This document shows positions 24,349 to 26,712 of a DNA stretch of 64,000 bases, piece after piece (position 1 is the stretch's first letter; each line of letters starts with the position of its first letter). Below the pieces are notes generated by a model. That model did no database searches and was not told the DNA's origin. It saw only the letters and a program-made list of their open reading frames with translations. This DNA is from Acidobacteriota bacterium. GTDB taxonomy: Bacteria; Acidobacteriota; Terriglobia; Versatilivoradales; Versatilivoraceae. Made by a program: the position numbers and the translations under genes. Where the stretch lies: assembly GCA_028875575.1 (NCBI GenBank), contig JAPPDF010000028.1:1-64000 (forward strand), given 5' to 3'.

Positions 24349-25152
24349 TTAAGGGGACTCCGCCCTTACCGAAAGTCTCTCGATTCCCTGAGCCCGGCCG
24401 GTCTCCGGATCGATATCGACCGCAACCGCATTGATCCTGACGTTCTGCTTGGCCGGCCCAAAGCGTGCCGGCAACTGGTCGATGAACTTGGATCGAATGA
24501 TGTCGGTCTCGACACCGATGACCGAGTCGTGGGCACCGGTCATGCCGACATCGGTCATGTAGGCGGTCCCCTTCGGGAGCGTGCGCTCGTCGGCGGTGGC
24601 CACATGTGTATGGGTCCCCAACACGGCCGAAACCTTGCCGTCCAGATACCAGCCCATCGCCTGCTTCTCCGCGGTGGCTTCGGCGTGGAAATCCACCAGG
24701 ACTACCTTGACGTCCGGCGAGAGTCTGTCGATAAGCTGTTCGCCCACACGGAACGGGCAATCGGTGAGGGGCATGAACAGCCGACCCTGCAGATTGATCA
24801 CTGCAAAGGGGACGTGGCTCCGGGTTTCACCCACAAAGAGGCCATGGCCCGGAGTTGTCGGCGGATAGTTGGCCGGACGCAGCAGCCTAGGCTCCTGGTC
24901 CAGGTAATCCAGGATCTCTTTCCGGTCCCACACGTGATTTCCGGAGGTCAACACCTCTACCCCCATTTCGAGAAACTGGTGGGCCAATGGCGGAGTAATC
25001 CCGCGTCCTGCGGCCGAGTTTTCGACGTTGGCCACGCACAGGTCGATCCGTCTTTCCTCCAGAATCTGGGGAAGATGGCCTCGAACGGCTTCTCGTCCCG
25101 GTCTTCCGAAGACGTCGCCAATAAACAGGATCCGCAGATTCTTGACGGGCAT
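24349..25152 (-). CDS. ymdB: YmdB-type metallophosphoesterase (TIGR00282), 2',3'-cyclic nucleotide phosphodiesterase
   Basis: The 267 residues match TIGR00282 throughout: ILFIGDVFGRPGREAV and NVENSAAGRGIT carry metal ligands, followed by TSGNHVWDRKEI, VDFHAEATAEKQAMG and LGTHTHVATADERTLP. Family members are di-iron enzymes that hydrolyse 2',3'-cAMP and influence RNA turnover and development. Elsewhere the gene often follows rny, but no rny is present here. Upstream on the same strand is the 6S RNA candidate and then zapA. The ATG at 25152 is four bases from a G-rich Shine-Dalgarno. Confidence 0.93.
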   Translation of the reverse strand: MPVKNLRILFIGDVFGRPGREAVRGHLPQILEERRIDLCVANVENSAAGRGITPPLAHQFLEMGVEVLTSGNHVWDRKEILDYLDQEPRLLRPANYPPTTPGHGLFVGETRSHVPFAVINLQGRLFMPLTDCPFRVGEQLIDRLSPDVKVVLVDFHAEATAEKQAMGWYLDGKVSAVLGTHTHVATADERTLPKGTAYMTDVGMTGAHDSVIGVETDIIRSKFIDQLPARFGPAKQNVRINAVAVDIDPETGRAQGIERLSVRAESP

Positions 25153-25310: not shown

Positions 25311-25484
25311 GAAAAACCCCGCTCTGCCGTGAGACACCTTATTTGGACCTGGAGACCAGGTGGGCGCCACTCCTTGAACATTAGGAAGCTTCACATGGTG
25401 AAGCTTACACACCGTACAAAGGTCAGGCTCCCTTCAAATAGGTGTTGGTTCAAATAATACATGCCTACACGTACATTGCAGGGT
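25311..25484 (-). ncRNA. ssrS: Probable 6S RNA
   Basis: A non-coding transcript of about 174 nt is predicted from a strong promoter (25520-25491) to a T-run (25316-25312). Its two halves pair as 6S RNA should: ACACCTATTTG (25445-25435) with CAAATAAGGTGT (25345-25334), with one bulged base, plus an outer CCCTGC with GCAG and GGG near the ends. The interior contains GAGTGGCGCCCACCTGG and GGGAGCCTGACC. The position downstream of zapA matches the conserved zapA-ssrS order. 6S RNA binds the sigma-70 holoenzyme in stationary phase. There has been no covariance search, so this is a reasoned candidate. Confidence 0.68.
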
Positions 25485-25490
25485 GGAAGG

Positions 25491-25520
25491 ATTCTAGTGA
25501 AAGCCGATTCTCCAGGTCAA
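25491..25520 (-). promoter_or_regulatory. Predicted promoter of the 6S RNA candidate
   Basis: On the minus strand, TTGACC (25520-25515) and TAGAAT (25496-25491) are 18 nt apart. The transcription start would be near 25484, exactly where the base-paired 5' end of the RNA begins. Confidence 0.6.
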
Positions 25521-25538: not shown

Positions 25539-26053
25539 CCTGTCTCACCCCTCATGGGCCGCCCCGTCGTGTGGGACGGCGGCGGGTTAGGCAAAAAGTG
25601 AATAGTGGCTAGTGGAGAGTGGAGAGTTATTTGATCGACACGTTACGCATCTTGTCTGAAGTACCGCTGTTTCGCCCTGTATCAGCCGCGCCGTCGCACG
25701 GTCCGGAGTCGAGCCTTGCCCCCCACCGCATCAGCCTTCGCCTGCGGCTCGGCTTCTGCGACTCCCCCTCAAGGGGGGAGTGATAGAGTTCTACTGGAAG
25801 CCTTGTGCTGGCCTGAAGAATCACTCCCCCCTTGAGGGGGAGTCGGTGAGACAAGGGCTCCGCCCGCAGTCGAACCGGTGGGGGGGACGGAACCAGCGAG
25901 ATCGCCGGATAGGAGATCCAGCCCCCAATCGAGCCGGTGGAGGGCCCCAGTCTCCCAGGTTCGTAACAGGCCCCTGTTTCACTCTCGTATGATCCGCGCG
26001 GAAGGACAGGGGGCTTGTCTGAAGCACGCCTGTTTCACAGTGTATGATCCGCA
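25539..26053. repeat. Cluster of four short dispersed repeats (TATGATCCGC family)
   Basis: Variants of TGTTTCACTCTC-(G/T)TATGATCCGC occur at about 25539-25576, 25651-25696, 25971-26000 and 26013-26053, and a fifth copy lies at 12642-12679. The copies at 25651 and 26013 also share the flank CTTGTCTGAAG(T/C)AC, and those at 12642 and 25539 share GCCGCCCCGTCGT-like right ends. They occupy the gene-free spacer between zapA and the 6S RNA (25521-26135). Frames in this stretch do not look coding. Confidence 0.6.
25719..25887. repeat. Long inverted repeat with CTCCCCCTTGAGGGGGAG cores
   Basis: The 26 bases at 25759-25784 are perfectly complementary to 25820-25845 around a 35-nt loop. Each arm is itself a near-palindrome of C and G runs. 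An outer pair, CCCCCCACCG (25719-25728) and CGGTGGGGGG (about 25876-25885), extends the symmetry to about 165 bp. The extent and palindromic cores suggest a non-autonomous repeat element inserted in the zapA-6S spacer. Confidence 0.65.
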
Positions 26054-26135
26054 CACAACGTCGGGCCCCGTCGATCATCTGACTATCATCCGACCTCTCG
26101 GCGGAGTATGGCCTATCTTCCCGGCGGTCCATTTC

Positions 26136-26429
26136 TCATTCGGGAAGGAACGCGTCCAGCATATCGGAGCAGCGGCTGCTCTTGTCGGCGAGAGCGGCGT
26201 CTGACCGCTCGGCCTGATCCCGTTGCTGAAACAGCTCATCGGCAATATTCAGCGCCGCCATCACGGCTACCTTGACGGTATCGACGGTTCGACTGGACTC
26301 CTGGATTTCTCGCATTTTTCCGTCGACATAAGCCGAAAGCCGCTCCAGGTAGTCTCCGTCGATGGCCCCGGTGACAGCGTAAACCCGATCGCAGATCTCA
26401 ACCCGCCTGACCTCATTTTCGCTTTGCAT
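26136..26429 (-). CDS. zapA: Cell division protein ZapA
   Basis: ZapA cross-links FtsZ protofilaments at midcell. The 97 residues show the short beta head (VRRVEICDRVYAVTGAIDGDYLERLSAYVDGKM) and the helical C-terminal half (TVKVAVMAALNIADELFQ). The ATG at 26429 has GGAG eight bases upstream. An in-frame GTG at 26438 would overlap that Shine-Dalgarno and is rejected. The gene ends the long translation block (zapB is 25 nt upstream) and is followed by the repeat-rich spacer and the 6S RNA. Confidence 0.88.
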   Translation of the reverse strand: MQSENEVRRVEICDRVYAVTGAIDGDYLERLSAYVDGKMREIQESSRTVDTVKVAVMAALNIADELFQQRDQAERSDAALADKSSRCSDMLDAFLPE

Positions 26430-26454
26430 CGTCCGCACTCCAAAGGTCGACCAT

Positions 26455-26712
26455 TCAAATTTCCCATCCGTCCAAACTGCCCAGGATCCGCTCGACTTTC
26501 TCCCTGATCATCTCCCGGTCCTTTCCAAATTCCGAGACCTCGGACTTCAGCCGATCATTCTCCGAGGCAAACTGCTCCATTTCCGATTTGAGTCTCCGGA
26601 CTTCTGCTTCCAGGGCTTCCTTTTGAGCCCTGGTGGCCTTGAACAACTCCGCCATTCGATAAACCCGGCTCTCGAGGTCAGCAAATTTTTCCAATCCGTC
26701 TCCCAACGTCAT
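26455..26712 (-). CDS. zapB: ZapB-like coiled-coil cell division protein
   Basis: This is an 85-residue, almost entirely heptad-repeat protein (about 10-75) with Leu/Ile/Met core positions and charged flanks, as in ZapB, which bundles at the Z ring through ZapA. Its ATG overlaps the pheT stop (ATGA) and zapA follows after 25 nt. Sequence alone cannot separate ZapB from other short coiled coils; the placement between pheT and zapA supports the call. Confidence 0.7.
   Translation of the reverse strand: MTLGDGLEKFADLESRVYRMAELFKATRAQKEALEAEVRRLKSEMEQFASENDRLKSEVSEFGKDREMIREKVERILGSLDGWEI

Follow-up and report, generated by a model that had tools for sequence, protein, structure and literature searches.

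A 6S RNA gene between zapA and ymdB in an Acidobacteriota genome, with sequence signs of a possible collapse-helix release step in part of its class

The minus strand of the window (the whole 64,000-nucleotide stretch of DNA analysed here) almost certainly carries, at 25312-25487, the single 6S (SsrS) RNA gene of an uncultured Acidobacteriota bacterium's genome, with its own sigma-70-type promoter and a rod-shaped product of about 173 nt that would work like other 6S RNAs. 6S RNA is a widely occurring small RNA; it resembles an open promoter and keeps RNA polymerase bound while cells are idle. A reading of the sequence alone had already proposed a candidate 6S RNA at this place, and had named an Infernal search with the Rfam model RF00013 as the check. 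In the 64-kb search the model matches end to end (positions 1-187 against 25487-25312 of the minus strand) with 76.7 bits (E 2.3e-13), well over its curated cut-off of 46.4 bits, and a search of the whole 4.5-Mb genome found this one copy. Conserved structure, conserved synteny and strong covariation point the same way. Neither of the two sequence-level outcomes that the sequence-only reading had held to speak against it occurred: the covariance hit is there, at full length, and the structure is conserved in relatives, with covariation across 42 sequences.

25312..25487, minus strand: 6S RNA gene (RF00013 match, relatives, covariation); predicted transcript from about 25484 to 25312, about 173 nt

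The promoter that the earlier reading had picked out on the minus strand, TTGACC, 18 nt, TAGAAT, was located at 25520-25491, with 10 of 12 consensus matches, in a 1.4-kb region where two promoter-like sites were seen against 0.5 expected. At the same position, all 12 family genomes have TTGACC with TAGAAT, TATGAT or TAAAAT. Placed from this promoter, the transcript would begin at A25484 and end in a U-run (25316-25312), some 173 nt in all, close to the figure of about 174 nt, with a T-run, that had been anticipated. Judging by its sequence, the 3' end is likely an intrinsic terminator.

25491..25520, minus strand: sigma-70-type promoter, TTGACC (25520-25515), 18 nt, TAGAAT (25496-25491); promoter scan, kept across the family
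25312..25324, minus strand: GC-rich 3' strand of the closing stem, then U5 (25316-25312), likely intrinsic terminator; from sequence

The predicted fold is a rod: a long imperfect closing stem, then a large bubble that stays open in the centre, then an apical arm. Relatives keep this shape with compensatory changes. Its energy is -72.4 kcal/mol (z -2.95), and none of 200 shuffled sequences folds as well. Across 42 sequences, 41 of them distinct, the 6S structure covaries far above shuffled and slid controls: in a MAFFT alignment that was not structure-fitted, 89.3% of cells are paired, against 74.9% after shuffling and 35-51% when the structure is slid along the alignment, the unslid version being favoured to some degree since the tested structure was derived from the same alignment. 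Double changes were observed in 223 cells, where 89 were expected, and the covariation score of 0.489 (0.242 shuffled, 0.08-0.15 slid) was reached by none of 500 shuffles, with the proviso that shuffle and permutation controls do not fully remove relatedness.

25478..25484, minus strand: closing stem, 5' strand ACCCUGC, pairing with about 25318-25324 (helix 1; 90% of cells paired, compensatory changes in 3 pairs)
25347..25361, minus strand: small 3' central-bubble hairpin ACCUGG-UCU-CCAGGU (helix 6; 95% of cells paired)

The surroundings of the gene are also conserved. Upstream, on the same strand, zapA is present in at least 26 of the 42 loci, and ymdB follows directly, within about 210 nt, in at least 27; both are minimum counts, as the searches used tblastn with single sequences. 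The 6S gene also lies just upstream of ymdB in named Acidobacteriota loci (L036, L052, L054, L062 and L084), and the survey of neighbours in relatives therefore makes zapA-6S-ymdB a usual order in the class. The position after zapA, with ymdB next, had been noticed in the sequence-only reading, together with the lack of fthC and rny, and both observations held. No fthC (5-formyltetrahydrofolate cyclo-ligase, PF01812) was found in the whole window genome, and the gene was found in only one of 61 relatives; rny (PF12072) was not detected anywhere in the window genome, nor in its genus. Within the family, rny is lacking in the window genus and in genus g3 and present in sister genera g2 and g4, where it lies downstream of 6S; elsewhere in the class sample it hardly occurs.

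26136..26438, minus strand: zapA, conserved upstream neighbour (PF05164, 5e-20)
24349..25152, minus strand: ymdB, conserved downstream neighbour (PF13277, 3e-104)

Two further features of this neighbourhood deserve mention in their own right. Between pheT and zapA, a short coiled-coil reading frame (26455-26712) resembles ZapB, its PF06005 match (E 3e-6) falling slightly short of the curated threshold. At 25620-26136, the spacer that separates zapA from the 6S promoter is occupied by a dispersed intergenic repeat, which contains a perfect inverted repeat of 26 bp (25759-25784/25820-25845). The dispersed repeat has 86 partial matches in the window genome, often at contig ends, and 45-129 in other genomes of the genus, with none in sister genera; its features suggest a genus-restricted, MITE-like element. 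A near full-length copy is found at this spacer only in the window genome and in genome G005, where the zapA-6S gap measures 652-705 nt, against 61-267 nt in the other five members of the genus. Rfam microRNA matches at 25754-25852 correspond to an inverted repeat, are far under their cut-offs, and were taken as chance.

6S RNA is widespread in Acidobacteriota, as judged from covariance searches. RF00013 finds it in 42 of the 61 relatives, as a single copy in each, and in 202 of 297 genomes sampled phylum-wide. A model built from those 42 sequences finds it in 48 of the 61 relatives; the 42 source sequences match their own model by construction, while the six extra genomes (G030, G032, G034, G039, G045 and G055) do not owe their match to it. 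With this class-specific model, no 6S RNA was found in any sampled genome of family f4, nor in the single f2 and single f10 genomes. These negative genomes are mostly more than 90% complete, and the lack of a match reflects either real loss or strong divergence. As for the window genome itself, its nearest named relative is Candidatus Versatilivorator (in the NCBI taxonomy Acidobacteriota, Terriglobia, Candidatus Versatilivoradales): YmdB, encoded next to 6S, shares 97% identity with the protein of Candidatus Versatilivorator vitaminiformans and 90-91% with those of other Acidobacteriota/Terriglobia metagenome-assembled genomes. The phylum is hardly studied in this respect within the literature that we found, where nothing on point paired 6S RNA with Acidobacteria; the distribution surveys of Wehner (2014) and Barrick (2005) fall outside that scope.

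The central bubble offers a candidate start for the short product RNA (pRNA) copied from 6S RNA. In E. coli 6S RNA we take U44 to be the pRNA start. The corresponding column holds C or U in 39 of the 42 sequences, as a purine-initiated pRNA requires, the pyrimidine being missing, in this alignment, from the three sequences of family f8; U44 itself sits in the same GA-N-CC-N-A-Y motif (E. coli sequence NC_000913). In the window the aligned template is C25444, opposite which the pRNA would start, and GTP would therefore initiate it.

25444, minus strand: putative pRNA start, template C; the pRNA would read GUUGGUUCAAAUAA on the plus strand from 25444 (aligned with E. coli U44)

Next to the bubble, two helices compete for one strand. 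The sequence-only reading had described ends and flanks that pair, 25435-25445 with 25334-25345; that complementarity exists, but it is not the terminal stem, which is formed by 25484-25478 with about 25324-25318. Here the central bubble's 5' side pairs with helix P2's 3' strand, in competition with P2. In the transcript, 25345-25334 reads CAAAUAAGGUGU, the first half of which is the P2 3' strand, with UUAUUUG upstream. Because the bubble nearly repeats the 5' strand of P2, the two helices are mutually exclusive. For the 6S RNAs of B. subtilis and A. aeolicus, the pairing with the bubble is known as the central bubble collapse helix, and it aids release after pRNA synthesis (PMC8876501).

25447..25457, minus strand: P2 5' strand adjoining the central bubble, UUAUUUGAACC, also the predicted template for pRNA extension (P2 pair 95% in the predicted free RNA; partner swap 0 of 20,000)
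25435..25445, minus strand: distal 5' central bubble, ACACCUAUUUG, the putative 5' strand of the collapse helix (partner-swap energies; mechanism by analogy with PMC8876501)
25334..25349, minus strand: 3' strand common to P2 (25339-25349) and the collapse helix (25334-25345) (partner-swap energies)

Since the collapse helix changes register from family to family, column-by-column counting was replaced by an energy test in which partner strands were exchanged between genera, with one representative per genus (n=26). With its true partner, the collapse helix has a mean energy of -9.4 kcal/mol, against -5.9 with swapped partners, and P2 of -12.5 against -8.8; in both cases none of 20,000 permutations reached the true value. 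When families were taken as units, the observed value was reached by 1 of 5,040 permutations for the collapse helix and by 2 of 5,040 for P2, the identity permutation being counted. The collapse helix has z -7.5, a control pairing that is not expected to form z -2.8, and a reversed-strand control z -1.0; relatedness therefore explains the collapse-helix signal only in part. The predicted probability of this helix is 0.03 in the free RNA, and it rises to 0.64-0.96 with 8-16 nt from the pRNA start occupied. It is strong in families f1, f3, f6, f8 and part of f9, the same groups in which a distal 5' bubble complementary to the P2 3' strand, and covarying with it, places the RNA with the B. subtilis type. 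It is weak or absent in f5, f7 (which lack that B. subtilis-type feature) and part of f9, and is therefore not universal in the class.

The RNA most likely works like its counterparts elsewhere. At low nutrients, the bubble would mimic an open promoter, and 6S RNA would occupy the active site of the housekeeping holoenzyme. The polymerase would escape by copying the bubble into a short pRNA, begun opposite C25444 with GTP (GUUGGUUCAAAUAA...), and the growing pRNA would strip the 5' strand from P2. The freed 3' strand, GGUCCAAAUAAGGUGU, would then re-pair with the distal bubble, ACACCUAUUUG; the bubble would collapse and the RNA be ejected, as in B. subtilis 6S-1 RNA. We infer expression, polymerase binding, pRNA synthesis and release alike. 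By analogy, the RNA is probably released from polymerase in the Bacillus way, and a passage through the collapse-helix step is the route that we favour, with moderate confidence.

The element stands on the same strand as zapA and 160 nt upstream of ymdB, a setting that would also suit a leader or attenuator regulating ymdB in cis, or a structured tail of the zapA mRNA, resembling 6S by chance. Yet it has its own promoter and likely terminator, and the match spans the whole 6S model; rny stands between 6S and ymdB in sister genera, and in f9 the RNA is present with no ymdB detected downstream. Both proposals are very improbable. We give hardly any credence, either, to an Ms1-like RNA, which would have the 6S shape while binding core RNA polymerase without sigma and making no pRNA. 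Ms1 is indeed structurally similar to 6S RNA (PMC9130861), but here the RF00013 match holds at the level of sequence, with conserved bubble motifs, and a conserved pyrimidine at the pRNA start goes together with a covarying release helix; moreover, Ms1 is reported from Actinobacteria, with other neighbours.

As a 6S RNA, the gene shares with the RF00013 family its length, full-length covariance match, closing stem, central bubble, apical arm, zapA synteny and single copy, and departs from it in belonging to a phylum outside the 6S literature found and in having no 5-formyltetrahydrofolate cyclo-ligase gene downstream. Like E. coli ssrS, it follows zapA and has the GA-N-CC-N-A-Y motif in register with U44, whereas the downstream gene is fau/ygfA in E. 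coli and ymdB here. On release, the E. coli RNA forms a 9-bp 3' bubble hairpin and not a collapse helix (PMC8876501). With B. subtilis 6S-1 RNA, the likeness extends to a small 3' bubble hairpin in the predicted free RNA, a predicted GTP start, and a collapse helix between the distal 5' bubble and the P2 3' strand (PMC8876501); in contrast, zapA lies upstream here, as it does in E. coli, and the collapse-helix register varies between families.

This places a well-understood global regulator of transcription in a phylum that is large and for the most part uncultured, together with a covariance model tailored to its class, and the diversity of acidobacterial 6S RNAs allows the two proposed release routes to be compared by covariation. 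Covarying P2 and collapse helix, the latter sliding in register between families, incline us, by a little, to think that selection acts on both states of the 6S switch in Acidobacteriota, and that f5 and f7, which do without the collapse helix, release the RNA otherwise. If so, evolution itself would supply evidence for a mechanism of release that has so far been inferred chiefly from B. subtilis and A. aeolicus; the type of release would also have changed repeatedly within one class.
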